From the NCBI RefSeq assembly GCF_002160145.1, contig NZ_NFKA01000014.1:1-64000 (forward strand): 64,000 nucleotides of DNA, read 5' to 3'. This stretch comes from Gemmiger sp. An194. GTDB taxonomy: Bacteria; Bacillota; Clostridia; Oscillospirales; Ruminococcaceae. Position numbers and translations under genes: made by a program. How positions within the stretch are numbered: the first letter of the stretch is position 1; every line of letters starts with the position of its first letter. The notes beneath the pieces were generated by a model that saw only the letters and a list, made by a program, of their open reading frames with translations, made no database searches and was not told the origin of the DNA. Positions 139-11,930 of the stretch are shown here, piece by piece.

Positions 139-159
139 GTGTGTTACCGGGTGTGTTAC
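139..159. repeat. Putative left integrase arm sites (two GTGTGTTAC repeats)
   Basis: Two identical copies of GTGTGTTAC start at 139 and 151, exactly 12 bp apart, overlapping the end of the integrase gene. The right end has two similar repeats, also 12 bp apart and in the same orientation (11788 and 11800). Paired short repeats flanking the core site are typical of arm-type binding sites of tyrosine recombinases. The role is inferred. Confidence 0.5.
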
Positions 160-1235
160 GCCTGACGGCTCAGCAGCGAAGAAAAGACGCTACCCAGAGT
201 GTCGGCGGCCTGCTCATCCTGGCCATTCACGCTATGGCCGTAAATGCCGAAGGTGTCCATGCTTCGACTGTGGCCAACCAGGCGTTTTACCTGTCCCTCC
301 GGCAGAACCTGGGCGATGGAAACGAAGGTGTGGCGCAGCTCATACGGGGAAACCGGGGTGAGGCCGTTGGCCGCGCAGTACACGGCCCAGCGTTTGGCGT
401 AGTTCTGCTGGTTGCTGATCCCGAAGATCTGCTTGCTGTGGCCGGTCATGGCCCGCTGCGCCTGAATCTCGGCAAAGGCCAGGTCGGGCAGCTGCACACT
501 GCGCACGGCATTCTCATTTTTGCCTTTGGTCACCTCGCCCCGGCAGTTAATCGACCGCTGCACATGGAGGGTTTGACCCTTCAGGTCTGACCATTCCAGC
601 CCCAGCAGCTCCCCGGGACGAAGGCCGGTAAGGACCTGCACCCGGTATGCGTGGATATATTCCTCCGGCACACGCTTGCCCCAGCGGGTGGTGGTGTCGA
701 TGTTGAAAAGCTTCACCAGGTCGGCGGGCTGAAGGATCTCTTTGCCCTTGTTTCTGGCCCCGGCGGGGATGGTGAGATCTTCGGGACTGAAGGTGGTCAG
801 CTTGGATCTGCGGCAGAATTTGAAGAAGGCCCGCAGATCGCAACACATGGAAGTGAGCGTCTTCTTGGAAAGACCCGCGGCGAAGGCAGCGTCTACAATA
901 TCCTGCAGGTTTTGCTCCGTGATCCGATCCAGCTTTTTGCCCCCGATGGCCGGATCGATCCACTTCCGCCACCGGCTGTCGATGGGCCGCCAGTTGGATG
1001 CGCTGGTGGTGGTTTGCAGCCGCTTGATCCATTCCGGGTAGACGCTGGCCACCGTGGCGCCAGCAGCATTCACCCCGGATTCCAGCCATCGGTCTGCCTT
1101 GGCGTTGGCCTCCCTCTGACCGGTGCGCCCAGGCGTGGAGCTGTAGAAGCTGCGGCGCTGGCCGTCTCGCTGCACACTGATCCGCCAGCGGCGGTTCTTC
1201 TCGTCCCAAGACGCGGTGTTTGTGCGTTTTTCCAT
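156..1235 (-). CDS. Tyrosine recombinase (phage/island-type integrase)
   Basis: This 359-aa integrase should catalyse recombination between the tRNA-Gly att sites. An AP2-like N-terminal arm-binding region (about 1-60) is followed by a SAM-like core-binding domain (about 60-155) and a catalytic domain. The active-site set is complete: R206 in TGLRPGE, K near 239-241, R301 with H302 in ELRHTF, H322 in VGHS and nucleophile Y332 in IYGH. I chose the ATG at 1235 because it is preceded by AGGAGG at good spacing; an in-frame upstream ATG at 1316 has no such site. It is transcribed toward attL, and its last codons overlap the putative arm repeats, so Int binding could affect the 3' end of its own gene. 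No excisionase is recognisable. Confidence 0.95.
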   Translation of the reverse strand: MEKRTNTASWDEKNRRWRISVQRDGQRRSFYSSTPGRTGQREANAKADRWLESGVNAAGATVASVYPEWIKRLQTTTSASNWRPIDSRWRKWIDPAIGGKKLDRITEQNLQDIVDAAFAAGLSKKTLTSMCCDLRAFFKFCRRSKLTTFSPEDLTIPAGARNKGKEILQPADLVKLFNIDTTTRWGKRVPEEYIHAYRVQVLTGLRPGELLGLEWSDLKGQTLHVQRSINCRGEVTKGKNENAVRSVQLPDLAFAEIQAQRAMTGHSKQIFGISNQQNYAKRWAVYCAANGLTPVSPYELRHTFVSIAQVLPEGQVKRLVGHSRSMDTFGIYGHSVNGQDEQAADTLGSVFSSLLSRQA

Positions 1236-1298
1236 AAAAATAAACCTCCTTGTTTCTACCCGCACCCTCCCACAAAGAGGGTGACATTCAGGCACACT

Positions 1299-1328
1299 TT
1301 GACAAGCCCACCGCAAAGAGGTTATAAT
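1299..1328 (+). promoter_or_regulatory. Consensus sigma-70 promoter for short RNA A
   Basis: TTGACA at 1299-1304 and TATAAT at 1323-1328 are both perfect consensus hexamers, separated by 18 bp. The promoter reads rightward into a non-coding stretch that ends about 85 bp later in an intrinsic terminator, so it seems to serve a short RNA rather than a gene. Confidence 0.75.
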
Positions 1329-1334
1329 ACAGGT

Positions 1335-1413
1335 GTTCGGGCTGCATTATCCCTTTGGGGTAAGCTGTCTATCAAAAGGCCGTTCTCTGTTGGCGCAGAG
1401 GGCGGCTTTTTTT
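1335..1413 (+). ncRNA. Predicted small RNA A (about 80 nt, two hairpins)
   Basis: A consensus promoter is followed by a predicted hairpin (TTATCCC at 1347-1353 with GGGGTAA at 1357-1363), a 14-nt linker and a terminator hairpin (1379-1406) with loop TTGGCG and a T7 run. A second unit at 10688-10771 has the same layout. Its terminator stem differs at paired positions in a compensatory way (GCCG/CGGC versus GCGG/CCGC; CTCTG/CAGAG versus ATCTG/CAGAT), while TT before the inner stem and TTGG in the loop are kept. No open reading frame with a ribosome site lies inside. The end hairpin also works as terminator for the convergent Zeta gene. Function is unknown. Confidence 0.65.
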
Positions 1414-1425
1414 CGTTGTTGCGGG

Positions 1426-1983
1426 TTATTCCATTCCTGCCATCAGCCGCACCAGCCATTCCGGCCGGCGGCTGCCAATGGGCAGGATCTCGCCGTTCCG
1501 GTACTCGGCCACCAGCACAAAGCCGTTGTCATTGTCGAAGAAGCGGGCCTCGTCGCAGTAGGGCAGCACCTTCGCCACATCGGCAAAACGGCGGGCAAAA
1601 CGGCTTTCCACATCCTTCCGAGGAATATCATGCCCGCCCTTGCGAACGCGGTTCTCGATGCGCTGGAGGCTCTCCTGCACGGTGTCCAGCCCGATGTAAT
1701 ACAGGCGGATGTAGTATCCGGCCTCTTTAGCCCGGCGGGCCAGCTTGCGGGTGTAGCCGCCGGAGAGGGTGGTTTCCTGGGTGAAGCTGACCCCCTCGGC
1801 GAGAGCCTTCTCCAGCTTATCCACGGCCAGCTTGCCGCCCTCGTATTCATCCCCGCCCAGCTCAGCGGTGAGCTTGTCCGGGTCTACGATAATGCCAAGA
1901 TCGGTGCGCTCGGCCTTCAAAGAGCCGGTAAGGCTGGATTTTCCGCAGCCGTTCACGCCGCCGATTATGGTGAAGATCTTCAT
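1426..1983 (-). CDS. Zeta-toxin-like P-loop kinase, orphan
   Basis: The 185-aa protein has a Zeta/PezT-like fold signature: Walker A GGVNGCGKSS at 8-17, an acidic-TTLSGG segment near residues 70-75, and an arginine-rich lid (RVRKGGHDIP, then RRF) near 113-130. Zeta toxins phosphorylate UDP-N-acetylglucosamine and block peptidoglycan synthesis; many short relatives are annotated only as Zeta-family kinases. No Epsilon or PezA antitoxin gene is adjacent. The start has a good site (AAAGGAAAAAG). Directly upstream of it, at 2001-2033, a strong hairpin reads as an intrinsic terminator on the opposite strand and lies in this gene's 5' leader. Cargo or defence gene of the element; the toxin role is inferred. 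Confidence 0.75.
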   Translation of the reverse strand: MKIFTIIGGVNGCGKSSLTGSLKAERTDLGIIVDPDKLTAELGGDEYEGGKLAVDKLEKALAEGVSFTQETTLSGGYTRKLARRAKEAGYYIRLYYIGLDTVQESLQRIENRVRKGGHDIPRKDVESRFARRFADVAKVLPYCDEARFFDNDNGFVLVAEYRNGEILPIGSRRPEWLVRLMAGME

Positions 1984-2000
1984 AGCTTTTTCCTTTCCCG

Positions 2001-2033
2001 CCTCCGGCAGCCGCCGGGGGCTTTTCTTTTTTT
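2001..2033 (+). terminator. Rightward terminator-like hairpin in the Zeta leader
   Basis: CCTCCGGC and GCCGGGGG form an 8-bp stem around AGCC (2001-2020), followed by CTTTTC and a T7 run. No rightward gene ends here. It might end an RNA antisense to the start of the Zeta gene, or fold in the Zeta mRNA leader just before its ribosome site. Confidence 0.5.
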
Positions 2034-2176
2034 ACCTGGCCGGAAATCCAGCGAGTTGCAGTTCTGTGCGGCGAAAAGTAGAACTCAGCGGGAAAACCAC
2101 CGGCTTTCGCTACCTTTCCAGGAATGAGCCGTCCCCAGCTGCAAAGGCCGGGGCCCCGCCGGGCCTATCTGCCATA

Positions 2177-3000
2177 GCGTTTCGGAGAAACGCGCTGCCA
2201 TCACAATGTGATGATCCAAGGGTCTGGGAAGCTCCCAGCAAGCGCCGTTTTCGCAGGACTTGGCCAAGAAAACATTGCTTGCCGATCAGCTCCGGCCCGG
2301 CGGCTGGTATAAGCCTGGCTTATCTCTGCCTTGATCTGGCTGCATGGTTGCGACATCTTGTCGCAACTTCTTTGCTGCCATCGATGCGGCAAGGGGGGCG
2401 GCGATTTACCGCCCCCCTTCTGCCCTTCGCAATTTGCGATGCCCTAAAGGGGTTTCCGTTTCGTTACTCCATCATGCGTTCAAGGGGGTCGCTTTAAACT
2501 CCCCCCCCTTTGTGCTCTGGGATGGGGTCGCTTTAAGCTACCCCACCGATGCGACAATTTGTCGCACCGGTGCCGTGTTCGCAATTTGCGATAACGGTGC
2601 CACTGTCGCACCGTGCGACAACGGTGCAGCGGCCGATCGGCTGGCCGGAGTCCGAAATTCGGACTTCCGCGAAACCTTGACAAACCTTAGCAATTCTCAG
2701 CATTGGCCACCCCCAAAATCAGGCAATGCCCCGCTCGCATCTCTTGAAAACCTTAACAAATCTTAACATCCAGTTGTCCACATTTTGGACAACTTCCCGC
2801 GGGCGTTATCGTGTTACAAAATGCCGCGCCGCCGTTCTTGTCCCGTTCCATACGCGCACGGATGTACGGTTTCTTCATATTCCAGCATAGGCAGAGGCTC
2901 CGGGATTTAAGGTTTTTCAGGTTTTCGCACCGGTGCGACAGGCTCCGTATATTGCCGATAATTTCGGCAACATAGCCAGTTGCCCGGATTGTGGGCAACT
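2177..3000. repeat. Left hairpin array: about 16 short inverted repeats, no gene
   Basis: No supported gene lies in 1984-3042. Instead perfect inverted repeats follow one another, many with 3-nt loops: 2177-2193, 2199-2213, 2224-2238, 2309-2323, 2347-2367 (9-bp arms), 2427-2439, 2550-2566, 2579-2591, 2604-2620 and 2649-2665. Larger ones are at 2391-2419 (11-bp arms), 2523-2545, 2772-2794 (9-bp arms), 2925-2938, 2952-2970 and 2978-3000. Arm sequences mostly differ, but TGCGACA/TGTCGCA recurs in at least three. The segment GGGGTCGCTTTAA is duplicated (2485 and 2524), as is a GAAACCTTGACAAACCTTA-like stretch (2671 and 2746). The structure is seen; the function is unknown. Confidence 0.8.
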
Positions 3001-3042
3001 TCCCGCCCTCTCTACGGCCCCTGGCTGGGCCTGTGGCGGGTT

Positions 3043-3570
3043 TTACTCTTTGGGGGTGTTGTCTTCATTTTTTGCTGGTTTAAGCGGCTTCTGAGAGGCG
3101 TTTTTGACTGCCTCAGACAGAATTAGAAGTTGTTCAGTTAAATCAAGCACCTGCCCTGTGGAAATGCCCCCATTCTTGTACATTTTTTTTAAAAACAAGA
3201 AAACCTTCTTCAAATCATCCGCTGACAATCCAGTTTCATCGATGCTGTATGTCACCTTTATACTTCCATCATTTTGTTGCTCCACATCGGAAATTGTTAC
3301 CAACCCATCTGCAAAAGTGTCGCCGACATGAAACCCTACTTCGTTATTCGTGTTTGTTGCAGAGGATTCCGCTTTCCCAAGCAGGTAGTCTACAGATACG
3401 CCGAAGTAATCGGCAATTTTGGAAAGCGTATCAGCTGACAAGGACTGCTTTCGCCCCATCTTCAAGTCAGAAAGAGAACCACGACTTGCGCCGCTTTGTC
3501 TGCAGAGTTCCGTTATGGTAATCCCCTTATTAGCGCAAAGTTGCGCAATTGTTTCGTATAATCCAGACAT
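3043..3570 (-). CDS. XRE-family phage-type repressor
   Basis: The 175-aa protein has an N-terminal HTH_3 domain (about 5-65; IAQLCANKGITITELCRQSG, then SLSDLKMGR and FGVSVDYLLGKAES) and an acidic C-terminal region without an S24 peptidase motif. It is divergent from the gene at 3751 across a 180-bp region that holds repeated TTACGC-NA-ACGC sites. This is the usual layout of a lysogeny repressor with its operators. The start at 3570 has GAGG 8 nt upstream. Lack of the LexA-like protease suggests induction by an antirepressor (as for SaPI Stl) rather than by self-cleavage; that is inference. Confidence 0.85.
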   Translation of the reverse strand: MSGLYETIAQLCANKGITITELCRQSGASRGSLSDLKMGRKQSLSADTLSKIADYFGVSVDYLLGKAESSATNTNNEVGFHVGDTFADGLVTISDVEQQNDGSIKVTYSIDETGLSADDLKKVFLFLKKMYKNGGISTGQVLDLTEQLLILSEAVKNASQKPLKPAKNEDNTPKE

Positions 3571-3604
3571 AATTTCAGCCTCATTCTTGTAGGATGTGCC
3601 AAAA

Positions 3605-3725
3605 TTACGCTAACGCTTAAAATATGCTTGAATTTTACGCGAACGCATAATATACTAAGCACATGGCGTGAAAGCGTAATACGTCATCACTTGGCAATCT
3701 CAATATATTACACTTGCGCGTAAAA
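3605..3725. promoter_or_regulatory. Divergent control region with repeated operators and rightward promoter
   Basis: TTACGCTAACGC (3605), TTACGCGAACGC (3635) and, inverted, a related GCGTGAAAGCGTAA (3666) recur; a further TGCGCGTAAAA lies at 3714. TTGAAT (3628-3633) and TATACT (3651-3656), 17 bp apart, form a rightward promoter whose spacer contains the second operator. Binding there by the XRE repressor would block the 3751-rep transcript. Confidence 0.6.
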
Positions 3726-3750
3726 GTCAATAGAAGGGAGATGAAAGGCG

Positions 3751-3987
3751 TTGGCACGAAAAGAACTTTGTCCGTTCGGTAAAGAAATCGGTCATGCACT
3801 TGTTGATATTAACCAGCCCAAGGAATGGCTGATTGAGCAAGTGCAGATTGATACGGGCCGCTATTTCGACCGGTCCTACCTGCATAAAATCCAGACTGGC
3901 GAGCTGGCTACCCCCCGTATCGTGGCCAGCATCAGGAAGATTCTGGACTTGCCTCAGGACACCACCGAAACGGAGATGATGCAATGA
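3751..3987 (+). CDS. Small XRE/HTH-like regulator
   Basis: This 78-aa protein is the first gene rightward from the repressor operators, so it is probably the early regulator (Cro/Str position). The sequence PKEWLIEQVQIDTGRYFDRSYLHKIQ resembles a helix-turn-helix core. It starts with TTG after GGGAG; the nearby ATG at 3741 is out of frame. Its stop overlaps the next start in an ATGA (3984-3987), so it is translationally coupled downstream. The assignment as DNA-binding is moderate. Confidence 0.7.
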   Translation: MARKELCPFGKEIGHALVDINQPKEWLIEQVQIDTGRYFDRSYLHKIQTGELATPRIVASIRKILDLPQDTTETEMMQ

Positions 3988-4022
3988 ACAACAAGAAGAA
4001 CGCACTGGGGGTGATTCATTGA
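3984..4022 (+). CDS. 12-residue coupling ORF between HTH gene and rep
   Basis: An ATG at 3984 overlaps the stop of the preceding gene (ATGA), and the 12-codon frame ends with a TGA at 4020-4022 that overlaps the TTG start of rep (TTGA). It seems to keep ribosomes moving into rep, whose own start is a weak TTG. The peptide itself (MNNKKNALGVIH) may have no function. Confidence 0.45.
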   Translation: MNNKKNALGVIH

Positions 4023-5338
4023 CCGGACAGGAATATCAAACCATGCTGGATGCAATCGACACCCCGGCGGAGCTGCTGCGGCCCGAATCTTTTCTACCGG
4101 CCTTCCAGCAGCCCACCCCAATTTCACGGAAAAGCTACCTGGACATTATCTACCGGCGAGCTGTCGTGCTTGGGATCTCCGATGAAGATTTTGAGCAGGC
4201 CGCCCGAGCTGCCCGCATTTCCGCCGGGGGCGATGTGTTCGGCAGGGCGGAACATACCGGCAAAGGCGGCATCATCGTACCACAGCTTGCGCCCATCGGC
4301 CTGAGCCAGATTCAGACGGCCGCCGTTGAATGGCTTATCCCCGGGCTATTCCCGCGCGGTGAACTGTCTGTGCTGGGCGCAGACGGCGGCACCGGCAAGG
4401 GGCTCTGGCAAGCGCAGCTGATTGCCCACGCGACCACAGCCCGGGAAAGCGACTTTTTCCCCGGGAGTATTTCAAAGCCCTGCCGGGCGCTGATCTTCTC
4501 CGGAGAGGATGACCCCGCAAAGGTGCTGCGGCCCCGACTTCTGGCCGCCGGAGCAGATGTGGAAAAGGTGTTCGTGGAAACTTCGGACGGCTTCTTTCGC
4601 AAGAACGGCTGCTTGTTGTCGATCGACAGCGAGTTAATGGCCGAGATCATCCGCAACACCGCGCCCGATCTGGTTATAGTAGACCCGTATCAGGCATTTC
4701 TCCCCATGGATGTGAAAATGGCCGAGCGCAACCAGATGCGCGGTGTCACAACGCCACTCAGGGCCGTCCTGCGTGAAACCAATTCCGCCGGGCTGCTTGT
4801 GGCCCACTCCAACAAGAAAGGCTCCGTTGCAGGCCGTCAGCGTCTGGCCGATTCTGCAGACCTCTGGGACGCATCCCGGTGCGTTGTTATGATGGGTCGG
4901 GATCGGGTGACAAAACAAGTCTATGTCAGCAACGAGAAGAACAGCTACGCCCCCGAGTGCCGAACGACGCTTTTCACCATCGAAGGGGCAACCGTGGAAG
5001 GGGTCAAAACCGCTGTGGCCGTGTACCAGGGCGCCACCGATAAAAAGGACTATGACTTCATCATGGACAAACCCACACGCCCGGCGGGTTCCAAGGATGA
5101 AGCCAAAGAGGCTATTCTTTCCATCCTCAATGAAAGCCAGACGGGCAGCATGGAGAGCGACAAACTCCGACTTGCAGTCAGGGAAGATACCGGGTGCAGC
5201 GATACGACATTTAGGCGCGCAAGGGACGACCTTAAAGCCGATGGCAACATTGAGATAAAACAAATACGGCTAAAGGATGGGGTGAATAAATGGTATGTCG
5301 TATACCGTGGTGCTGTAAATGAGCATCTGGGTCAATAA
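4019..5338 (+). CDS. RepA-like hexameric helicase/ATPase with C-terminal winged helix
   Basis: This 439-aa AAA_25/RepA-type ATPase has a P-loop at 120-128 (GADGGTGKG; the last residue is Gly where Ser/Thr is usual), GEDD at 162-165 and a Walker B strand LVIVDPY at 218-224. A C-terminal winged-helix-like region (about 355-425) should bind DNA. Such proteins unwind replication origins of plasmids and satellites. Iteron-like repeats begin inside its last codons and continue downstream, which supports a Rep-ori module. The start is TTG at 4019, with GGGGGTGA upstream, coupled to a 12-codon ORF. No separate primase is evident. Confidence 0.85.
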   Translation: MTGQEYQTMLDAIDTPAELLRPESFLPAFQQPTPISRKSYLDIIYRRAVVLGISDEDFEQAARAARISAGGDVFGRAEHTGKGGIIVPQLAPIGLSQIQTAAVEWLIPGLFPRGELSVLGADGGTGKGLWQAQLIAHATTARESDFFPGSISKPCRALIFSGEDDPAKVLRPRLLAAGADVEKVFVETSDGFFRKNGCLLSIDSELMAEIIRNTAPDLVIVDPYQAFLPMDVKMAERNQMRGVTTPLRAVLRETNSAGLLVAHSNKKGSVAGRQRLADSADLWDASRCVVMMGRDRVTKQVYVSNEKNSYAPECRTTLFTIEGATVEGVKTAVAVYQGATDKKDYDFIMDKPTRPAGSKDEAKEAILSILNESQTGSMESDKLRLAVREDTGCSDTTFRRARDDLKADGNIEIKQIRLKDGVNKWYVVYRGAVNEHLGQ

Positions 5339-5497
5339 ATGGCCTTGTGAAGCCATTATTTGGCAGATGCTCAATGTGAGCATCTGACCCCATCTGAGCA
5401 TCTGACCCCCAGATGCTCACCCCACCCCCAGGTGCTCATCCTGAGCTTCTGCCGTTTTTCGGTGCTGTGAAGCCATTCTTAGACCCAGATGCTCATC
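5321..5497. repeat. Iteron-like repeats, candidate replication origin
   Basis: The 9-mer GAGCATCTG, or its complement CAGATGCTC, occurs at 5321, 5364 (inverted), 5378, 5396, 5410 (inverted) and 5486 (inverted), with variants at 5429 and 5443; several are followed by (A)CCCC. TGTGAAGCCATT is also repeated at 5346 and 5466, exactly 120 bp apart. Repeats directly after a rep gene are typical of Rep-bound origins. Confidence 0.65.
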
Positions 5498-5600
5498 ACC
5501 ATCACTCTATAGGGCCGTGAGTATCTGCCCCACGGACCGAAAGCCGGGCGAATCCCGCAACCGAGAAACAAAAATCCATATTGAAAGCGAGTGAACTACC

Positions 5601-5768
5601 ATGAACCCGACCGACAATTATTGTCCCCTGCTGCTTATCGTCGCCGCTCTGAGCGGCCCCCAGTGGGGACAGTGCCTCCGCCATTCGTGCGCCTGGTACG
5701 ACTACGATAACAAGAGCTGCGCCCTGCTCAGTATCGCGCGCAGCCTGAGAGAGGAGAATGGAAAGTGA
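5601..5768 (+). CDS. Small Cys-rich phage-type protein
   Basis: This 55-aa frame begins MNPTDNYCPLLL and has Cys at a CPL motif, then CLRHSCAWYD and CALLSIA. The C...C-C-x-WY...CA spacing resembles small putative metal-binding proteins common in Firmicute phages and islands. Its stop overlaps the GTG start of the next gene. Ribosome site is weak (GAAAGCGAGTGA). Function unknown. Confidence 0.65.
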   Translation: MNPTDNYCPLLLIVAALSGPQWGQCLRHSCAWYDYDNKSCALLSIARSLREENGK

Positions 5769-5953
5769 GCAAGGCTTACAACGATGTTATGGCCGGTATT
5801 CTGAATGGAATAGAGACGACGCGGCCTGCCGATGTGCAGCACGTTTGCGATCTTCTCTATATCATTCGGCGCAGCGATTCCGCCACGCTGAGAAAGCTTC
5901 TGGCCGTTGCAAGATCGCTGGACCGGATAAACGCAAGGAAGGTGAAAACATGA
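5765..5953 (+). CDS. Hypothetical small helical protein
   Basis: The 62-aa protein starts with GTG at 5765 after GAGGAG and overlaps both neighbours (GTGA and ATGA). It seems all-helical, with LLYIIRRSDSATLRKLLAVARSL. Its C-terminal half resembles that of the gene at 6899 (both end in an R-x-x-L-x-A-A/R-x-L helix). No family recognised. Confidence 0.6.
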   Translation: MSKAYNDVMAGILNGIETTRPADVQHVCDLLYIIRRSDSATLRKLLAVARSLDRINARKVKT

Positions 5954-6279
5954 AAGCACACAGTGAACTGGAACTTATCGCCCGGCGGTACCGCAAATAC
6001 GGCGTGAGCCTGGACAAGCTGCTGGATCTGTTGGCCAGCGCCGAAGCCCGGGGCCTGCCCCACAGCGGGGCGCTTGCCTGGCTGCGGCTCACCTTGGGCA
6101 ATGAGTTCGGAGAAGAGGAGTATTTCAACGCCGAGCAGATTTCAGCCATGACCGGCGACACCCCGGAGCAGGCCACGGCCCGCATGGTGGAATTTTGCAG
6201 AACGCACCCCGACCATGGGCCGGTGCTCTGCATCGACCGCCGGGCGCTGGACATGATCGAAGCCGGACAGGAGGAATGA
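5950..6279 (+). CDS. Hypothetical protein, 109 aa
   Basis: ATG at 5950 overlaps the preceding TGA. The protein is rich in charged helices (ELELIARRYRKYGVSLDKLLDLLASAEARG) and ends acidic. The middle (FNAEQISAMTGDTPEQATARMVE) could be a helix-turn-helix, but this is weak. It belongs to the early operon of the element. No family recognised. Confidence 0.65.
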   Translation: MKAHSELELIARRYRKYGVSLDKLLDLLASAEARGLPHSGALAWLRLTLGNEFGEEEYFNAEQISAMTGDTPEQATARMVEFCRTHPDHGPVLCIDRRALDMIEAGQEE

Positions 6280-6282
6280 ACG

Positions 6283-6510
6283 ATGTTATTCAAAGCACTG
6301 CGCGTGAGAATGGTGGAGAAGGAGATCCTTCAGGCAGAGGTGGCCCGGCGGGCCGGGATGGCAGAAAGCACCCTGAGCAGCCGGATGCAGGGCCGACAAC
6401 CTTTCACGGCCTGGCAGATCGAATCCATTGCCGATGTGCTGCAGATCCCGCCGGAGGAGTGGCACCACTACTTTTTCGATCGTGCCCCGGGCAACAAAAA
6501 AGCCGGCTGA
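6283..6510 (+). CDS. Small XRE/Cro-type HTH protein
   Basis: The 75-aa protein is a single helix-turn-helix domain: KEILQAEVARRAGMAESTLSSRMQG, then a third-helix region ending in LQIPPEEWHHYFF. It starts at ATG 6283 after GGAGGAATGA. It probably is a second regulator of the element. An inverted repeat begins at its last codons (6502-6533). Confidence 0.8.
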   Translation: MLFKALRVRMVEKEILQAEVARRAGMAESTLSSRMQGRQPFTAWQIESIADVLQIPPEEWHHYFFDRAPGNKKAG

Positions 6511-6571
6511 GAAGCGCCAACTTCTCAACCGGCAAAATGGGAAACAGATTGACAACCCCTGTTTCCCTCCC
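6499..6571 (-). ncRNA. Predicted small RNA C, leftward (about 75 nt)
   Basis: On the minus strand TTGCTC (6600-6595) and TAAACT (6577-6572, preceded by TG) are 17 bp apart. The predicted transcript folds as GGGAAACAG...CTGTTTCCC and then a terminator stem (6533-6502, GCCGG and TGAGAAG arms) with loop TTGGCG and a T6 run. The layout and loop match RNAs A and B, but the stem is longer and the linker is shorter. The -35 box overlaps the start region of the rightward gene at 6600. Confidence 0.4.
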
Positions 6572-6599
6572 AGTTTATCAGAAAACGGAGGAATGAGCA

Positions 6600-6902
6600 A
6601 TGAAATTTTTCAAGACCATCAATCTGACCGCCTACGAAGTGGAGTACATCGACCAGCGGGAGCCGAAGCCCCGCACCGTAAAGCGTGAGGCCGTGGTGCT
6701 GGACGGCGGCCGGATCAGCGCGCTCGGTCGCCTTGGAATCCGCCCGGCGGGCTGGATCTCCCAGCAGTTCGCCGCCCAGGGCTACACCGTTACCACCGTG
6801 CGCAAAGGCGAGAGCCTGGGCGTAGATGTGGACTTGTCCGAGCTGTGGCAGCGCACCGCCGCCCAGATCGCCGAGCAGCAGGAAGGGGGCACAGCGGAAT
6901 GA
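6600..6902 (+). CDS. Hypothetical protein, 100 aa
   Basis: ATG 6600 follows GGAGGAATGAGCA. The N-terminal half (FKTINLTAYEVEYIDQREPKPRTVKREAVVLDGG) looks like beta strands, followed by a mixed C-terminus. It overlaps the next gene in an ATGA. No family recognised; similar small proteins occur in Clostridia islands. Confidence 0.7.
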   Translation: MKFFKTINLTAYEVEYIDQREPKPRTVKREAVVLDGGRISALGRLGIRPAGWISQQFAAQGYTVTTVRKGESLGVDVDLSELWQRTAAQIAEQQEGGTAE

Positions 6903-7066
6903 AACAACCGCAAACGAGTGTACCCGAAAACGACAAGGTGATTGAGCAAGTGTGCCAGATCGGACGTACCCTTACACCCGAAAACAGAAAACGGGTGATT
7001 CTGGCAGCTCAATCCCTTCTGAAGCAGCAGGACGTGGAAGACGATCGCGGAGGTGAGATGAAGTGA
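6899..7066 (+). CDS. Hypothetical small protein, 55 aa
   Basis: It starts at ATG 6899, overlapping the previous stop, and ends overlapping the GTG of the next gene. The body (VIEQVCQIGRTLTPENRKRVILAAQSLLKQQ) is amphipathic helix, like C-terminal parts of some XRE regulators. A ribosome site AAGGGGG lies 5' of it. Function unknown. Confidence 0.65.
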   Translation: MKQPQTSVPENDKVIEQVCQIGRTLTPENRKRVILAAQSLLKQQDVEDDRGGEMK

Positions 7067-7290
7067 ACCGTACATACCGCAAGCAGCGGGCCGCCGGAAA
7101 GGCCCGCCAGACGGCTTTTCTCATCGCCACTGTGTTCTATGCCCTGCTGACCGTGGGCCAGCTGGGGGCCATTGTAGAGGGGCTGACGGGCATCGTGCCC
7201 GGCCTCGTGCTGTGCATCCTGTGGGGCTTCGGCGCCGCTGGCTGCTACCTGGCCGCCGGGCCGGTTCTGGAAGGAGGTGAGGCGCTGTGA
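7063..7290 (+). CDS. Small two-TM membrane protein
   Basis: The 75-aa protein starts with GTG at 7063 after GGAGGTGAGATG. A basic N-terminus (NRTYRKQRAAGKARQ) precedes two hydrophobic helices (about 17-37 and 42-68), giving an N-in topology. It overlaps both neighbours by 4 nt. It could be a holin-like or exclusion protein, but nothing proves it. Confidence 0.65.
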   Translation: MNRTYRKQRAAGKARQTAFLIATVFYALLTVGQLGAIVEGLTGIVPGLVLCILWGFGAAGCYLAAGPVLEGGEAL

Positions 7291-7793
7291 ATGCTCCTCA
7301 AGTCAAAGAGATTCCCGGAATGACCTTCACCGGCGAATTTAACCGCTTTCATGGCCAGTCTTTGCCGGTGTATGCACCGAAGGAACCCACAAACGGAAGG
7401 CCGAGTATCAACACGCTGGAAGGTTGGAATCTGCTTCGCCACGAACTGGCGGAACGCGACCTTTTGCGGGCACTTCACCGCCAGCCCACAGAAACCGAAA
7501 TCACTGCAGAGCTGGCCCGAAACGAGGCGCTTGCGGCTGCGACTGCGGAAAGGGCGAACAGTACCCGGACACCTAAACTCCTGCGAACTGTATACAATAT
7601 CCACGGTTTCATGGTGGAAGTTACGCGAGGGACTGGGCACGGGCTGTGCATGCCTTATGACACGGACCCCAGCGGCAGAACTATCGGCCTTGTGTTGGGG
7701 CGGAATATGAGTGAGCGGCAAGGGCTGGAGTTCGCAAAGTGGTGCATTGAGACCGGCAAATTCGGCTTCTTCCCTGACCAGAAAACAATATGA
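7287..7793 (+). CDS. Hypothetical protein, 168 aa
   Basis: GTG at 7287 follows AAGGAGGTGA at ideal spacing and overlaps the previous stop. The N-terminus is rich in Pro/Phe loops, a helical middle (LLRHELAERDLLRALHRQ, then TEITAELARNEALAAATAERA) follows, and a mixed C-terminal domain ends the protein. No catalytic motif or family is recognised. Confidence 0.7.
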   Translation: MNAPQVKEIPGMTFTGEFNRFHGQSLPVYAPKEPTNGRPSINTLEGWNLLRHELAERDLLRALHRQPTETEITAELARNEALAAATAERANSTRTPKLLRTVYNIHGFMVEVTRGTGHGLCMPYDTDPSGRTIGLVLGRNMSERQGLEFAKWCIETGKFGFFPDQKTI

Positions 7794-7807
7794 CAGGAGG
7801 AATCACA

Positions 7808-7960
7808 ATGGCGACTTTCGCACAAGTACAGGTGGTACTGACATTCCTGCAGCATCTTTTGGGCGGGGCCCTTTCGCCCGATCGGTCGGCTCTGGTTACC
7901 CAGGCGCTCACCATCCCCGAAGAAAAGGCCGCTCGGCTGCTGGCCGAGCTGAATATTTGA
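7808..7960 (+). CDS. Small hypothetical protein, 50 aa
   Basis: A 51-codon frame from ATG 7808, with AGGAGG 6 nt upstream, encodes a helical protein (FAQVQVVLTFLQHLLGG, then IPEEKAARLLAELNI). Its stop is followed at once by a hairpin with GCCCC/GGGGC arms and 3-nt loop (7963-7975). Function unknown; the strong ribosome site supports it as a real gene. Confidence 0.65.
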   Translation: MATFAQVQVVLTFLQHLLGGALSPDRSALVTQALTIPEEKAARLLAELNI

Positions 7961-8022
7961 TAGCCCCGCCGGGGCGGCTACGAGGCTTCCCCGGCGGTTG
8001 GTCGGAAAAGGTTGGTGAAAAC

Positions 8023-8457
8023 ATGACAAGAGACGAGGCCAAAACCCGGCTGGAGCGATACACCGGGCTTCGGCTGGAAGTGCGCATCCGGCTGGAGCGG
8101 TTGGCCACGCTTCAGCAGATGGACCGGGAGCGGCCTTCCCCATGCGGCAGCCGGTCGGAGGAGTACGCCCGGGCAATTGCTCCCATCGTGCAAGCGAACC
8201 GCCGGGAGATGGCAGAGATTGAGGCGGCCGTGGCTGCCCTTCCTGATCCGTTGGAACGAGAGGTACTGCGGCTGCGATACCTGGAATTCTCCAAAGACCC
8301 GCGGACCGGCAAGAAGAGCGTCCGGCATATCACCTGGAAAGAAATTGGCCGCATAGTGTATGGGGATGGCGGCAAATCTGGGCAGAAATCTGCCCAGCGC
8401 CACTTGGAAAGGGCTATTTCTTATCTGGCCACCATCTGGCCGGAATCAGGGCAATAA
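8023..8457 (+). CDS. RinA/ArpU-like transcription regulator (DUF1492-type)
   Basis: The 144-aa protein has an N-terminal coiled-coil (RDEAKTRLERYTGLRLEVRIRLERL) and a C-terminal sigma-region-4-like HTH (ALPDPLEREVLRLRYLEF, then TWKEIGRIVYG and SAQRHLERAISYLA). This matches the DUF1492/RinA/ArpU group, which activates late genes of phages and islands. A true sigma-like gene follows 70 bp later, so the two could form a late switch. Start at ATG 8023 is preceded by GGTGAAAAC, a weak site. Confidence 0.75.
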   Translation: MTRDEAKTRLERYTGLRLEVRIRLERLATLQQMDRERPSPCGSRSEEYARAIAPIVQANRREMAEIEAAVAALPDPLEREVLRLRYLEFSKDPRTGKKSVRHITWKEIGRIVYGDGGKSGQKSAQRHLERAISYLATIWPESGQ

Positions 8458-8527
8458 AAAAAGAGCCGCCCTCCCGGACGGCCCACAACCTTATCACCAG
8501 TATAGCATGAACGGGAGGGCAGCACAA
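8456..8527 (-). ncRNA. Predicted leftward mini-transcript D (promoter plus terminator)
   Basis: On the minus strand TTGTGC (8527-8522) and TATACT (8504-8499) are 17 bp apart. Only about 16 nt after the box comes a perfect terminator: GCCGTCC/GGGCGGC stem (8482-8465) and a T7 run (to 8456). The RNA would be about 40 nt. No leftward gene explains this terminator. The promoter overlaps the translation start of the sigma-like gene, so it may compete with that gene. Confidence 0.35.
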
Positions 8528-9468
8528 TGGAAGAAACCAGAACCCCCGGCGGAACGGGCGCACAGCAGGCCGCACCGCCGCTCGATCAGCGCCAGGAGCT
8601 GAACAGCATGCTCGCCCAGCTGGCCCGTCAGGGCAACAGTGCGGCCCTGACTCAGCTGTGGGAGATTAACCGACCTGTGATCCGTACAATGTTCTGGCGT
8701 TGGTACAGCCGGAATCAGGGCGTGGCCGAATCCGCCGGGGTTACCCTGGAGGACTTCGACCAGGAAGGCTATTTTGCCGTGAAAGAGGCGGCAGAGTACC
8801 ACAACCCGGAGAAAGGCGCTTTTCTGACGGCGCTGCAATATTTTGTGCAGCATCGAATCCAGAAGGCCATCTTGCAGGGCCGGGGGCGGTATGTGGTCAC
8901 AGAGGACGGCCGCCGAGTGAGAGTCTCGGCGGAACCGTTGGACAGCGCCCAGAGCCTGGACGAGCCTGTTCCATGGGACGATGACGGAGAAGTCACCCGG
9001 GCCGATGTAACCCCAGACCCGGCAGCTGCCCAAGCCTTTGAGGATGCAGAGCAGAACAGCTACCTGCAGGAGCTGCGGGCGGTGCTGGACAAGGCGCTGT
9101 CCCTGCTGCCCGATCGGCAGCGAAACGTAATCGCCTGGCGCTTCTACGAGGGGCTTACCCTTCAGCAGGCCGCCGCGCTTGACGGGGTAGCAAAGGAGCG
9201 GATCAGGGCCATTGAAGATGCTGCCTTGCGGGCGCTGCGCCAAAATCAGGAGCTGCGCCGGTTCTACGGCGAGGATCTTCTTTCCCGGGCCTATCAGGGA
9301 ACCGGCTTCGGAGCCTGGAAGAGCGGCGGCAGCGTGCAGGAGCGCCTTGTGGAACGCCAGGAAGAGAAGGAACGCCGCCTTGCTGCATCCAGCACAAAAC
9401 ACCTGGCCGAGCTGCTGGGCCTGGATGCAAAGGAGCTGTACGGCTTTTTCGATGATGTGCAGCAATAA
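8527..9468 (+). CDS. Sigma-70-family-like factor
   Basis: The 313-aa protein has a region-2-like part (about 75-120: LEDFDQEGYFAVKEAAEYHNPEKGAF with a helix VQHRIQKAI) and a region-4 HTH (about 195-240: LPDRQRNVIAWRFYEGLTLQQAAA, then KERIRAIEDAALRALRQ). Between them is an acidic linker, and a coiled-coil tail follows. Element-encoded sigma-like factors usually drive late genes or steer host RNA polymerase. The start at ATG 8527 has GGGAGGGC upstream. Promoters it recognises are not known; the short units on the element are candidates. Confidence 0.8.
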   Translation: MEETRTPGGTGAQQAAPPLDQRQELNSMLAQLARQGNSAALTQLWEINRPVIRTMFWRWYSRNQGVAESAGVTLEDFDQEGYFAVKEAAEYHNPEKGAFLTALQYFVQHRIQKAILQGRGRYVVTEDGRRVRVSAEPLDSAQSLDEPVPWDDDGEVTRADVTPDPAAAQAFEDAEQNSYLQELRAVLDKALSLLPDRQRNVIAWRFYEGLTLQQAAALDGVAKERIRAIEDAALRALRQNQELRRFYGEDLLSRAYQGTGFGAWKSGGSVQERLVERQEEKERRLAASSTKHLAELLGLDAKELYGFFDDVQQ

Positions 9469-9544
9469 CCGCCGGGCAACCACAACCACGAAACAGGGGG
9501 CACACGGCCCCTTGCGATATATTTTACTTATGGAGGATTGAATT

Positions 9545-10207
9545 ATGAACAGCAATCAGAAGGCCATCAAGGACAGCGCACAGAGCATTTTTTCGGAGCT
9601 TGCGCTCTTTTCCAACGCGGTGACGGACTTTCAGAAGAAGGCCCGGGAAATTTCGAAGGAAGAGTACTTGACCAATGAGGGCATCGAAGCCAAAACAAAC
9701 GAGGCCAAGGCGTACCTGGTCAAGCGGGCTGTCGAGCTTAGCTCCAGTATTTCGCTGAGCCTGGCGACGATCCGCAAGGCAGCCATGGCCATGGAAGAGA
9801 GTTTCGTTATCTCCCCGGAGCTTCAGGCGGCCATTACTCTGACCAGCGCAGCAGGGGAAAAGCTGGACACTTCCGCGCGTGATCGGATGTGGAAGCAGTT
9901 CATTGGCGACAACAACGCCCTGCGCTCCCTCAAGGCACTGTTTGAGAGCAAAGGGATGTACACCAAGGAGATGGAAAAGTACATCTTCAACGCCGAGGAC
10001 CAGTGCAATGACCTGGAGTCCTCGGCCCTCGACTTCAAGATCCAGCCCGGCACCAATTTGAACCAGACTGTCGCCTTCGGCCGGAAACTTGAAAAGTTCT
10101 GCGAGCTGGAGGGCGTGGAGCTGGACAACCCCTTTATCCAGTATTTGAACGCAGAGGATTACAGCCAGTTCTACACTGAGCAGCTGAGGACTGCCTTCGG
10201 TATCTAA
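9545..10207 (+). CDS. Hypothetical protein, 220 aa
   Basis: A strong site (GGAGG, 8 nt) precedes ATG 9545. The protein is predominantly helical (QSIFSELALFSNAVTDFQKKAREI, then SSSISLSLATIRKAAMAME) and acidic, without signal or TM. It ends close to a bidirectional hairpin terminator. It stands last in the rightward operon, where satellites often carry interference genes, but no family is recognised. Confidence 0.75.
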   Translation: MNSNQKAIKDSAQSIFSELALFSNAVTDFQKKAREISKEEYLTNEGIEAKTNEAKAYLVKRAVELSSSISLSLATIRKAAMAMEESFVISPELQAAITLTSAAGEKLDTSARDRMWKQFIGDNNALRSLKALFESKGMYTKEMEKYIFNAEDQCNDLESSALDFKIQPGTNLNQTVAFGRKLEKFCELEGVELDNPFIQYLNAEDYSQFYTEQLRTAFGI

Positions 10208-10217
10208 GATACACGCA

Positions 10218-10250
10218 CAAGGCCCGCCGGGTTTGTCCTAGCGGGCCTTC
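10218..10250. terminator. Terminator between convergent genes
   Basis: AAGGCCCGC and GCGGGCCTT form a stem (10219-10249) between the gene ending at 10207 and the leftward gene ending at 10259; T-richness on both sides is modest. Confidence 0.65.
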
Positions 10251-10258
10251 TGCTTGCA

Positions 10259-10534
10259 TTATGCGATTGTGAACCGGCGGACGGTCTGGGGTTTGCAGAA
10301 CATGGCATACAGGCGCTTGTGGGCGGCCGCAAATGCCTTGCTGTCAAAGCGGTTGCTGGTCACTTCCTTGTAGCGGGCCGTGGTATCGTCGATCTGCATT
10401 TCATCCACCCCGGCGGCATCCATGTGGGCCTTGATCCGGTCGGCCACGGCGGCCTTCTGCTTCTCCAGCTGGGCGATCTGGGCGGCGATTTGCTGATATT
10501 CGTTCATTGCTTTGCGCAGTTCGGTCTTTTTCAT
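10259..10534 (-). CDS. Phage-type coiled-coil protein (ends in TSNRFDS...RRFTI)
   Basis: The 91-aa protein has a coiled-coil (MNEYQQIAAQIAQLEKQKAAVADRIKAHM) followed by a conserved tail: YKEVTSNRFDSKAFAAAHKRLYAMF and a C-terminal RRFTI. This is a recurring small protein of Firmicute phages and islands, often near YqaJ-like recombination genes; its role is not established to my knowledge. The ATG at 10534 with GGAAG upstream is preferred over an upstream in-frame start. It is convergent with the 9545 gene. Confidence 0.75.
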   Translation of the reverse strand: MKKTELRKAMNEYQQIAAQIAQLEKQKAAVADRIKAHMDAAGVDEMQIDDTTARYKEVTSNRFDSKAFAAAHKRLYAMFCKPQTVRRFTIA

Positions 10535-10658
10535 GGGGAACTTCCTTTCATTGTGGAGCCGCCCGGCGGTCATCTTCCTGACTATTGCCCGTAGGTTCAC
10601 AGGGATATGGGCCGCCGCTTGCGGGCGCTTTCGGCTGCCCGGCGGCTGGGTGTTCATC

Positions 10659-10687
10659 TTGCATTTCGTGTGCGGTTCTGATACAAT
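10659..10687 (+). promoter_or_regulatory. Promoter for short RNA B
   Basis: TTGCAT (10659-10664) and TACAAT (10682-10687) are 17 bp apart, reading right into RNA B. Confidence 0.6.
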
Positions 10688-10693
10688 GAAAGC

Positions 10694-10771
10694 AGCAAGG
10701 GAGCCTGTTTAGTTGGTTGCTAAGTGGTTTCTGCTATGCGGTTATCTGTTGGAGCAGATAGCCGCTTTTTT
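10694..10771 (+). ncRNA. Predicted small RNA B (about 78 nt, two hairpins)
   Basis: This unit mirrors RNA A: -10 box to end of T-run is 84 nt here and 85 nt there. Hairpin 1 closes with TTAG/CTAA (10709-10723), a 13-nt linker follows, and the terminator stem (10738-10765) has loop TTGGAG and a T6 run. Hairpin 1 ends in TAAG in both copies. Differences in the terminator stem keep pairing. The RNA is antisense to the 3' half of the micro-ORF at 10742-10834. Confidence 0.65.
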
Positions 10772-10834
10772 GTATCTGTCGAACCGTTCAAGCTGTTGGC
10801 TTCTGGGAAGCTGTTCAAACTGCTTGCTCGTCAT
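10742..10834 (-). CDS. Putative 30-aa micro-protein antisense to RNA B
   Basis: A 31-codon frame starts at ATG 10834 with AAAGGAGG 5 nt upstream. It has its own leftward promoter: TTGTAA (10900-10895) and TATAAT (10877-10872), 17 bp apart, with an operator copy in the spacer. The peptide is charged and soluble (MTSKQFEQLPRSQQ...RYKKAAICSNR), so it is not a typical type I toxin. Its 3' half overlaps RNA B in antisense. Coding is supported only by promoter and ribosome site. Confidence 0.45.
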   Translation of the reverse strand: MTSKQFEQLPRSQQLERFDRYKKAAICSNR

Positions 10835-10875
10835 GCCGGCCTCCTTTCCGGCTCCCTTGCTGTGATTATATTATA

Positions 10876-10960
10876 CTACATGTACCCATACATTACAATT
10901 GGCATACCGCACAAACATGTCCCCATGTATTTATCCATTTTCTACATGTACACATACATT
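10876..10960. promoter_or_regulatory. Three-copy operator for the ribbon-helix-helix regulator
   Basis: CTACATGTACCCATACATT (10876-10894) and CTACATGTACACATACATT (10942-10960) differ at one base; a related ACATGTCCCCATGTAT lies midway (10915-10930). The first copy is in the spacer of the leftward micro-ORF promoter and the last lies just upstream of a TATAAT at 10970-10975 for the rightward gene at 11001. Short repeats of this kind suit ribbon-helix-helix autoregulation. Confidence 0.65.
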
Positions 10961-11000: not shown

Positions 11001-11201
11001 ATGCCCATAAGTGATGCCAGAAAGCGCGCCAATCAAGCGTACATCGACAAACAGGACGAAATCAAAATCCGAGTTCCGAAAGGGCGCAAAGCCGAAATTC
11101 AGGCCTATGCGGAAGCGCACGGCGAAAGTGTCAATGCGTTCATCAATCGGGCCATAAACGAGGCTATGGAGCGGGACAGCTCCGACCCTGAAAAGCAATG
11201 A
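11001..11201 (+). CDS. Arc-type ribbon-helix-helix regulator
   Basis: The 66-aa protein has a ribbon (KQDEIKIRVPKGRK) and two helices (AEIQAYAEAHGESVNAFINRAINEAMERD), typical of Arc/MetJ-like repressors. ATG 11001 is chosen because the conserved family start is MP(I/V)S-ARKRAN; an in-frame start at 10899 would run through the operator region. It probably represses itself and the divergent micro-ORF. A terminator follows at 11209-11250. Confidence 0.85.
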   Translation: MPISDARKRANQAYIDKQDEIKIRVPKGRKAEIQAYAEAHGESVNAFINRAINEAMERDSSDPEKQ

Positions 11202-11856: not shown

Positions 11857-11881
11857 TGGAGCAGATGATGGGAATCGAACC
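11857..11881. repeat. attR, right copy of the 25-bp att repeat
   Basis: Identical to 1-25. It forms the 3' end (T-arm half, acceptor strand and CCA) of the tRNA-Gly gene. Confidence 0.9.
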
Positions 11882-11930
11882 CACACAGCCAGCTTGGGAA
11901 GCTGGAGTTCTACCACTAAACTACATCTGC
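11857..11930 (-). tRNA. tRNA-Gly (anticodon CCC)
   Basis: The 74-nt gene folds as a cloverleaf: acceptor GCAGATG/CATCTGC, discriminator U, encoded CCA, anticodon stem CCAGC/GCTGG around TTCCCAA (anticodon CCC), and T-loop GTTCGATTC. The 3' end is the integration site of the element. Confidence 0.97.

Follow-up and report, generated by a model that had tools for sequence, protein, structure and literature searches.

Comparative sequence evidence places the predicted small RNA (sRNA) at positions 1329–1413, called copy 1, in an sRNA family that accompanies the site-specific recombinase genes carried by mobile elements of this bacterial family. Copy 1 lies in an 11.9-kb element integrated at a tRNA-Gly gene at the start of the window, the whole 64,000-nucleotide stretch analyzed here. 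With modest confidence, we favor a joint reading in which copy 1 would be an antisense off-switch of integrase translation and a second unit, copy 2, a separate antisense RNA.

Structure and family of the integrase-linked sRNA

An earlier note had described two units, at 1329–1413 and 10688–10771, each with a promoter, a hairpin and a terminator, and both are present there. The features around copy 1 are:

156–1235, minus strand: tyrosine integrase gene (int), divergent from the copy 1 sRNA; Pfam PF00589 3e-9, PHROG integrase 2e-44
1299–1328, plus strand: promoter of the integrase-linked sRNA, a perfect TTGACA-18-TATAAT
1329–1413, plus strand: copy 1, integrase-linked two-hairpin sRNA; probable start site about 1335
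1339–1370, plus strand: hairpin 1 of copy 1, from fold and covariation; the family arm and loop are complementary to integrase Shine-Dalgarno regions
1379–1413, plus strand: intrinsic terminator of copy 1, loop TTGGCG, T tract 1407–1413
1426–1983, minus strand: zeta-toxin-like P-loop gene (Pfam Zeta_toxin 1e-8), which reads across the copy 1 sRNA towards int

The whole-unit fold has a z of -6.0 in copy 1 and of -3.5 in copy 2. Taken alone, hairpin 1 of copy 1 reaches a z of -2.8, with 2 of 200 shuffles equally good. The 13–14-nt linker described earlier belongs largely to the 3′ arm of a hairpin 1 that is longer than described, and the true linkers are 8 nt in copy 1 and 2 nt in copy 2. The TTGG loop of the terminator, also described earlier, is real. 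GTTGGCGC followed by five T within 4–16 nt (this orientation of the loop was searched) has three distinct occurrences in the 3.07-Mb genome, of which two lie within this element, at 1389 (+) and 6521 (-), which rules out the TTGG loop as a general terminator habit of the host. Among the 32 family matches of at least 44 bits, the terminator loop is GTTGCCGC in 16, GTTGGCGC in 10, inverted GCGCCAAC in 2, GTTCCAGC in 2, GTTGCAGC in 1 and unclassified in 1. A U-turn makes a kissing-loop role possible for a terminator loop, and a literature search on such a role returned background material only. This role is weakened here because the U-turn letters vary among the 32 matches.

Covariance models R2 and R3 were built here, R3 from 39 sequences. 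Copy 1 scores 95.5 bits with R2 and 86.8 bits with R3, values that are high by construction since it is identical to a training sequence. Matches are found in 87 of 396 family genomes at E ≤ 1e-3, false matches included, and in 25 of the 396 at 46 bits or more. At 46 bits or more, the divergent neighbor with an open frame is a site-specific recombinase in all 29 of 29 cases (25 tyrosine, 4 serine); for copy 1 it is int. A promoter stands at the matching place in 24 of 30 matches at this threshold, with 0.2 expected from shuffles. Linkage is to both recombinase classes, and a near-identical sRNA (75/82) precedes a serine recombinase at locus L113 and a tyrosine recombinase at locus L126, in different genomes. 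The sequenced phage FP_Lugh carries the family RNA upstream of int, at 57 bits. The unit is absent at 6 of the 17 integrase loci inspected. A class-wide search gives matches at E ≤ 1e-4 in 7 of 321 genomes outside the family, at 8 places, of which six adjoin a recombinase by Pfam (3 serine and 3 tyrosine, one being a 139-aa fragment) and two do not. Several of these outside-family RNAs have a different first hairpin.

Hairpin 1 of the family holds a conserved GGGTAAGCTGTTCTAT sequence, with the core motif TTATCC..GGGTAAGCTGTTCTAT. Hairpin 1 covaries: in an alignment fitted to the structure, 94.0% of cells are paired versus 73.9% when shuffled, and double changes occur in 21 of 25 pairs. Hairpin 1 energies are better on the sRNA strand than on the reverse strand in 35 of 35 cases. 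MAFFT alignments A2, A3 and A12 misplace hairpin 1 and were left out of the covariation claims. A candidate alternative hairpin at the 5′ end (P0) also covaries, with 70% of cells paired versus 56% shuffled, and its single-sequence tests are mostly not significant. The conserved structured RNA proposed by the earlier note thus holds for copy 1, which has the many covarying homologues set beforehand as its test, with no match in Rfam. Against Rfam 15, copy 1 hits no family and its matches at E ≤ 10 lie far under gathering scores; in the Rfam 15 scan of the window, tRNA alone reaches its gathering score.

Recombinase leader and proposed control by the sRNA

Covariation establishes, at the level of sequence, a predicted Shine-Dalgarno hairpin in the recombinase leader. 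In the window its two arms are:

1243–1252, minus strand: integrase Shine-Dalgarno arm, CAAGGAGGTT on the int strand; pairs with 1314–1323; read from sequence
1314–1323, minus strand: arm complementary to the integrase Shine-Dalgarno, within the sRNA promoter spacer; read from sequence

The hairpin was tested on relatives, and L016 was used instead of the window's own leader, which has a 38-nt insert. In the predicted leader fold, the recombinase Shine-Dalgarno (d) is base-paired to segment c, which is part of the sRNA-promoter sequence. The c:d pairing has -24.1 kcal with its own partner versus -19.2 kcal when swapped (0 of 5000 permutations, kinship of loci ignored). In 25 of 35 leaders its energies are better on the int strand (p 5e-4), and its wobbles are strand-specific (86 GU vs 26). 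Hairpin 1 of the sRNA is complementary to the Shine-Dalgarno as well, with 4 of 5000 permutations and a modest z of -3.2 (kinship ignored); it beats the reverse-strand control in 31 of 37 cases, and that control also covaries (25 of 5000).

These strand data bear on the possibility that the repeats act as DNA, serving as operators or integrase arm sites, and not as RNA structures. The inverted repeats do span the promoter, and the b:c repeat is without int-strand bias. However, the wobbles of c:d and the uniformly better sRNA strand of hairpin 1 are RNA signatures, and the RNA accompanies serine recombinases too, which are not known to use arm sites, so that we regard DNA sites as highly improbable. 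The b:c pairing covaries (0 of 5000, kinship ignored), with energies that favor the sRNA strand and not the int strand (p 0.03), and on the int strand the native a:b pairing does not outperform swapped partners (833 of 5000). A full antisense-controlled leader switch is not established, because the b:c pairing that it requires favors the sRNA strand.

In the mechanism that we propose for copy 1, a constitutive-looking promoter would transcribe about 80 nt away from the recombinase gene, and this sRNA would be antisense to recombinase mRNA reading in from upstream genes. In the leader of that mRNA, segment c, lying in the sRNA-promoter sequence, would sequester the Shine-Dalgarno d, to which a segment of sRNA hairpin 1 would be complementary. 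The sRNA would pair with the leader and turn translation off in the integrated state, and this off-state would last until upstream transcription is high enough to outrun the sRNA. As an antisense RNA to the read-in mRNA whose hairpin 1 carries a segment complementary to the Shine-Dalgarno, it most likely blocks recombinase translation. Its transcription, its pairing in the cell and its repressive sign are what we infer.

The same unit could be a mere divergent promoter and terminator whose transcriptional interference shields int from read-through, with an RNA that is inert. Close members have both promoter and terminator, and in the window and in FP_Lugh the transcript opposes upstream genes reading towards int. 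A plain terminator, however, needs neither a covarying hairpin 1 with conserved GGGTAAGCTGTTCTAT nor complementarity to a Shine-Dalgarno, and we hold an inert insulator to be unlikely.

The sign of control could also be the opposite, with the sRNA activating recombinase translation by opening the Shine-Dalgarno hairpin. Asr9 of ISPpu9 in Pseudomonas is reported as an antisense RNA on the transposase leader that activates rather than represses (PMC8450116). The copy 1 sRNA would share this layout, being antisense to a mobile-element recombinase mRNA in whose 5′ leader the ribosome-binding site is hidden. The two are likened by description, and Asr9 differs in that it serves the transposase of one insertion sequence, is an activator and has a partner sRNA, Ssr9 (PMC8450116). 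Against activation, blocking the sRNA-covered segments, and those alone, lowers the predicted accessibility of the Shine-Dalgarno from 0.28 to 0.09; it is lower in 30 of 35 leaders, and hairpin 1 is complementary to the Shine-Dalgarno itself. Against repression, the recombinase leader is predicted to be mostly closed even without the sRNA. Activation appears improbable, and we retain repression as the preferred reading.

Copy 2 and its 30-aa module

Copy 2 is probably a separate antisense RNA against a phage-type early transcript with a 30-aa frame and a structured leader, and both RNAs share their 5′ sequence. Its features are:

10659–10687, plus strand: promoter of copy 2, TTGCAT-17-TACAAT; read from sequence, absent from the 16 sites of the promoter scan
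10694–10771, plus strand: copy 2, antisense sRNA of a different module; hairpin 10694–10735, terminator 10738–10771
10694–10705, plus strand: left arm of inverted repeat, AGCAAGGGAGCC, at the 5′ end of the copy 2 RNA
10742–10834, minus strand: conserved 30-aa open frame MTSKQFEQLPRSQQLERFDRYKKAAICSNR; its 3′ end overlaps the copy 2 terminator
10835–10853, minus strand: hairpin that presents the Shine-Dalgarno of the 30-aa frame; 0 of 10000 in the test of own against swapped pairing, over 10 loci that include several close relatives
10850–10861, minus strand: right arm of this inverted repeat; the 30-aa mRNA begins with the same sequence
10870–10898, minus strand: promoter of the 30-aa mRNA, TTGTAA-17-TATAAT
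11002–11201, plus strand: Arc-like repressor gene (Pfam Arc 1.8e-4, slightly above its cut-off), divergent from the 30-aa mRNA

The earlier note had taken copy 2 as a second copy of the copy 1 RNA, both units belonging to one sRNA family. With R3, copy 2 (41.1 bits) and its sister on contig C23 (39.5 bits) rank second and third after copy 1 genome-wide, all 25 model pairs are canonical when copy 2 is aligned to R2, and the TTGG terminator loop is common to both copies. However, loci whose neighbor is no recognized recombinase reach 43–46 bits with R3 (L151 46.1, L157 43.4, L134 43.3), so the score of copy 2 is within their range. The TTATCC..GGGTAAGCTGTTCTAT core is absent from copy 2, and its neighbor at 10259–10534 is not a recombinase by Pfam and PHROG. 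In some copy 2 relatives the TTGG loop gives way to TTACAG, TTGCAG or other sequences. On energy alone, the first hairpin of copy 2 is no more stable than expected by chance (z -0.9; 31 of 200 shuffles as good). The stem differences between the copies, described earlier as compensatory, are no sign of common descent because any two terminators differ so. One common family is thus quite improbable, although copy 2 may be a very distant relative of copy 1.

Copy 2 has relatives of its own in a different gene context, and the phage FP_Taranis also carries the module. The 30-aa frame has no match in Pfam and PHROG. A profile search of 394 genomes of the order gives 11 genomes at E ≤ 0.05, of which its own genome and one other (G570) were accepted. 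In viral contigs the AGCAAGGAA..TTCCTTGCT pattern gives 16 stretches, none of which fits the small-frame pattern, and the AGCAAGGGA..TCCCTTGCT pattern gives 3 stretches, two with the small frame.

The par locus of pAD1, a type I toxin-antitoxin system of the Fst type, has convergent overlapping RNAs, a small open frame and repeats in both 5′ regions. The copy 2 module likewise has predicted convergent overlapping RNAs, a small frame and 5′ repeats in both. Its predicted antisense RNA overlaps the small-frame mRNA in sequence, as a type I antisense RNA would. In contrast to par, its repeats are inverted, both RNAs begin alike, and the 30-aa product is hydrophilic: as read from the sequence, it is charged and without the hydrophobic run of a membrane-type toxin.

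Known systems and implications

RNA-OUT of IS10 is a short stable antisense RNA from a strong promoter that opposes the recombinase gene and overlaps the transposase start. Copy 1 too would be a short antisense RNA from a strong promoter opposing a recombinase gene, whereas its start is about 55 nt upstream of the start codon, and its sole match to the Shine-Dalgarno is through a repeated Shine-Dalgarno-like segment. Its predicted complementarity to a leader hiding the ribosome-binding site is of the Asr9 and RNA-OUT type. RNAII of pMV158 and the antisense RNAs of pT181 and pIP501 are small, have a terminator hairpin and act on plasmid replication leaders that can form alternative structures. 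The copy 1 sRNA would resemble them as a small antisense RNA with a terminator hairpin on a leader that can adopt alternative structures; its proposed target, in contrast, is a site-specific recombinase and the controlled element a Shine-Dalgarno hairpin. A microbiome structured-RNA catalogue, with candidates near integrase or phage domains, may already contain the copy 1 motif, unnamed: among these candidates, HMP2_7457 is a 67 bp motif of Firmicutes, commonly near integrases and reported expressed (PMC8040213). Both it and the copy 1 family are near integrases, compared by description only (PMC8040213). A literature search that covered few subscription journals turned up no account of an antisense sRNA divergent from an integrase gene.

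Mobile elements pass between gut bacteria by means of integrases, and to our knowledge the silencing of these enzymes in Clostridia is little studied. If the proposed reading is true, the copy 1 family, present at 46 bits or more in 25 of 396 genomes and with both recombinase classes, would be a general layer of RNA control. We put forward tentatively, at slightly less than even confidence, that an RNA off-switch has been shuffled between unrelated tyrosine and serine recombinases across gut Clostridia elements. The sRNA, its promoter, the Shine-Dalgarno-hiding arm and the Shine-Dalgarno would form a co-evolving cassette, in which one sequence may serve as promoter, as arm of the mRNA hairpin and as counterpart of the sRNA anti-Shine-Dalgarno, and integration and excision would be under RNA control. 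The FP_Lugh copy offers a simple reporter test in a sequenced phage, and the family may serve as a marker for locating integrase starts and elements in metagenomes.

The element and its two RNA units

The integrated element at the contig start is bounded by a 25-bp direct repeat, which may extend further, since the contig itself begins at position 1. The features are as follows.

1-25 and 11857-11881: 25-bp direct repeat TGGAGCAGATGATGGGAATCGAACC, bounding the element
156-1235, minus strand: tyrosine integrase gene (int), left end of the element
1314-1323 with 1243-1252, int strand: complementary pair c:d of the int leader
1329-1413, plus strand: copy 1, a two-hairpin sRNA (hairpin 1 at 1339-1370)
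1426-1983, minus strand: zeta-toxin-like gene, reading towards the integrase
10694-10771, plus strand: copy 2
11857-11930: tRNA-Gly gene, containing the second copy of the direct repeat

Both units of the earlier note have promoter, hairpin and intrinsic terminator; what it had called a linker is mostly base-paired. The folding z-scores of copy 1 and copy 2 are -6.0 and -3.5 for the whole unit, and -2.8 and -0.9 for hairpin 1 alone. The layout predicts transcription of copy 1 away from the integrase. By eye, genes that resemble the zeta-toxin-like gene adjoin such modules in several elements (L016, L019, L020 and L055). A further unit at 6492-6577 (minus strand) combines the hairpin GGGAAACAG..CTGTTTCCC with a downstream terminator whose loop is TTGGCG, and scores 23 bits with the covariance model R2. 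It is antisense to the end of an XRE-like gene (6283-6510) and is possibly a third antisense RNA of the element.

Recombinase linkage and structure of the copy 1 family

Rfam 15 gave no match reaching the gathering score; at E<=10 there were solely matches far below it. In the literature searched, no description of an integrase-linked sRNA of copy 1 type was found, and the family is not described in the parts available of PMC2864571, PMC11109978 and PMC2869324. PMC8040213 presents 28 candidate RNAs from human microbiomes that neighbour integrase, sortase or phage domains, and the copy 1 family may be among them.

In a DNA search of 100 relatives, 4 genomes matched, the own genome included, and an integrase scan gave 23 loci. 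The 17 with a usable integrase start were checked by eye. Promoter, hairpin and terminator lie upstream of int in 11 of them (L016-L024, L032, L033), four of which (L021, L023, L032, L033) stay at 32-41 bits with the final model; six (L025-L028, L030, L034) have no upstream unit. Covariance-model R1 was built on copy 1 with the homologue identical to it, R2 on 8 loci and the later R3 on 39 sequences. In the search of the family, made with R1 and then R2, matches at E<=1e-3 occur in 87 of 396 genomes and 51 of 126 genera. Because E-values were calibrated on random sequence, the neighbouring genes were checked at 110 of the 117 listed places, leaving out a sister of copy 2 on contig C23 and 6 weak places. 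A neighbour was counted as a divergent frame of at least 100 aa, and recombinases were called by Pfam. The search model contains no protein, and no promoter except in the row of L022.

Neighbours and promoters of the matches: score band; matches; divergent frames; recombinases (tyrosine, serine); correctly placed sigma-70-like promoters, found and expected
>=46 bits; 30 in 25 genomes; 29; 29 (25, 4); 24 and 0.2
38-46 bits; 26; 24; 22 (16, 6); 12 and 0.3
32-38 bits; 54; 46; 22 (19, 3); 10 and 0.5

At 38-46 bits, the two frames that are not recombinases encode gyrase-B in one case and a Uma2 protein in the other. With 22 recombinases among 46 frames, about half of the lowest band is unproven. 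Over their first 80 nt, 7 of the top 30 matches are identical to a training sequence; without them, 23 independent matches remain, 22 with a frame, and all 22 frames are recombinases. At L099 the sRNA -10 box is apparently lost, and the inverted repeats flanking it are retained (GGAGTCACC/GGTGCTCC).

Among 8 places in 7 class genomes beyond the family, 6 adjoin recombinases. The sequenced phage FP_Lugh carries a copy 1-type RNA upstream of int (57.4 bits), and two genes on the strand of int precede it there, one for a LexA-like repressor and one for a hypothetical protein. Within one genus, the sRNAs of L113 (serine recombinase, genome G014) and L126 (tyrosine recombinase, genome G245) are identical at 75 of 82 positions, and the 60 nt upstream at 49 of 66. 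Judged from these alignments, the copy 1-type module crosses recombinase classes.

Covariation was assessed in A11, an alignment of 39 distinct sequences from loci with R2 matches that we selected and fitted to the model, and hence biased towards it. In A11, 94.0% of cells are paired versus 73.9% when shuffled and <=53% when slid. Double changes occur in 21 of 25 pairs, including all 7 upper-stem pairs of hairpin 1. RNAalifold on A11 recovered the terminator and 6 upper-stem pairs of hairpin 1, and did not recover its lower stem. Comparison shows both the recombinase linkage and the structures of the family. Three loci (L024 2858-2946, L033 2873-2963, L051 833-921) carry an exact inversion of the terminator loop, TGCGCCAACA rather than TGTTGGCGCA, together with differing stems, as though the loop could flip and either orientation were retained. 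Another two-hairpin RNA type, ACAATGGGGGTGC..GCACCCC and then a terminator (L208, L209, L151), has two copies in the own genome (contigs C49, C33) and one in L151.

Copy 2 and its module

Of the two units proposed as copies of one structured RNA, copy 1 is a conserved one with a covarying family. Copy 2 scores 41.1 bits with R3, the second-best place in the whole genome. Recombinase-linked loci outside the training set score 32-60 bits; loci lacking a recognised recombinase score as high as 46.1 (L151), 43.4 (L157) and 43.3 bits (L134, whose element has a second such RNA). Copy 2 is therefore not filed in the copy 1 family.

Relatives of copy 2 occur on contigs C23 and C15, in genomes G001, G005, G313 and G570, on viral contigs L050, L051, L053 and L054 and in phage FP_Taranis; phage Pioen and MT839305 were matched by tblastn only. 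We compared 10 loci, several of them close relatives. All have a convergent frame of 30-34 aa, whose lysine codons (KK; RK in L009) supply the T tract of the antisense terminator. In these 10 partly related loci, a hairpin presenting the Shine-Dalgarno sequence (own versus swapped, 0/10000) and covarying terminal inverted repeats (0/10000) were found; L009 is weak in both. Since the terminal repeats are inverted, both RNAs of the module start alike. The downstream gene varies among most loci (by eye). The 9.3-kb viral contig L051 has, like the window, a copy 1-type RNA (833-921) together with a copy 2 module (~4406-4574). In L050 and L051, upstream of the small frame, the 30-aa mRNA promoter is surrounded by palindromic operator-like repeats CACGATATCGTG; in the window, ACATGTAC-type repeats adjoin an Arc-like gene.

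The integrase leader and the predicted role of copy 1

The int Shine-Dalgarno sequence (d) has its complement, read along the int strand, in segment c, which comprises the promoter spacer and -10 of the sRNA. In 35 leaders, own c:d pairs are stronger, at -24.1 versus -19.2 kcal for species-swapped pairs (0/5000 permutations, kinship ignored). Wobbles (86 GU versus 26) and energies (25 of 35 leaders, p 5e-4) favor the int strand, so c:d is an mRNA structure. Segment b, complementary to an arm of sRNA hairpin 1, is also complementary to c (0/5000, kinship ignored); these energies slightly favor the sRNA strand (p 0.03), so a b:c helix in the mRNA is not claimed. On the int strand, own pairs of the hairpin 1 complement a:b do not outdo swapped ones (833/5000, kinship ignored); all 35 leaders favor the sRNA strand for a:b, as an sRNA hairpin should. 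Four more distant recombinase-linked loci (L197, L200, L203, L141) show a different leader design, with a large inverted repeat that covers the -10 box of the sRNA and the RNA's later part.

Because b resembles d, hairpin 1 of the sRNA is itself complementary to the Shine-Dalgarno sequence. In 37 leaders the own pairs give -14.7 versus -13.5 (4/5000, kinship ignored) and in 31 of them beat the reverse-strand control, which gives 25/5000 when tested by itself. When the sRNA-covered part is blocked, predicted Shine-Dalgarno accessibility falls from 0.28 to 0.09 and is lower in 30 of 35 leaders. The sRNA would pair directly with the int Shine-Dalgarno sequence and would also pair with read-through int mRNA. 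As a rival, the promoter-terminator unit may simply insulate int, the RNA having no function. Alternatively, the sRNA may activate the recombinase, by analogy with Asr9 of ISPpu9, for which activation is reported (PMC8450116). We infer transcription of copy 1, its pairing in cells and a repressive sign; copy 1 would most likely be an antisense repressor of Int synthesis.
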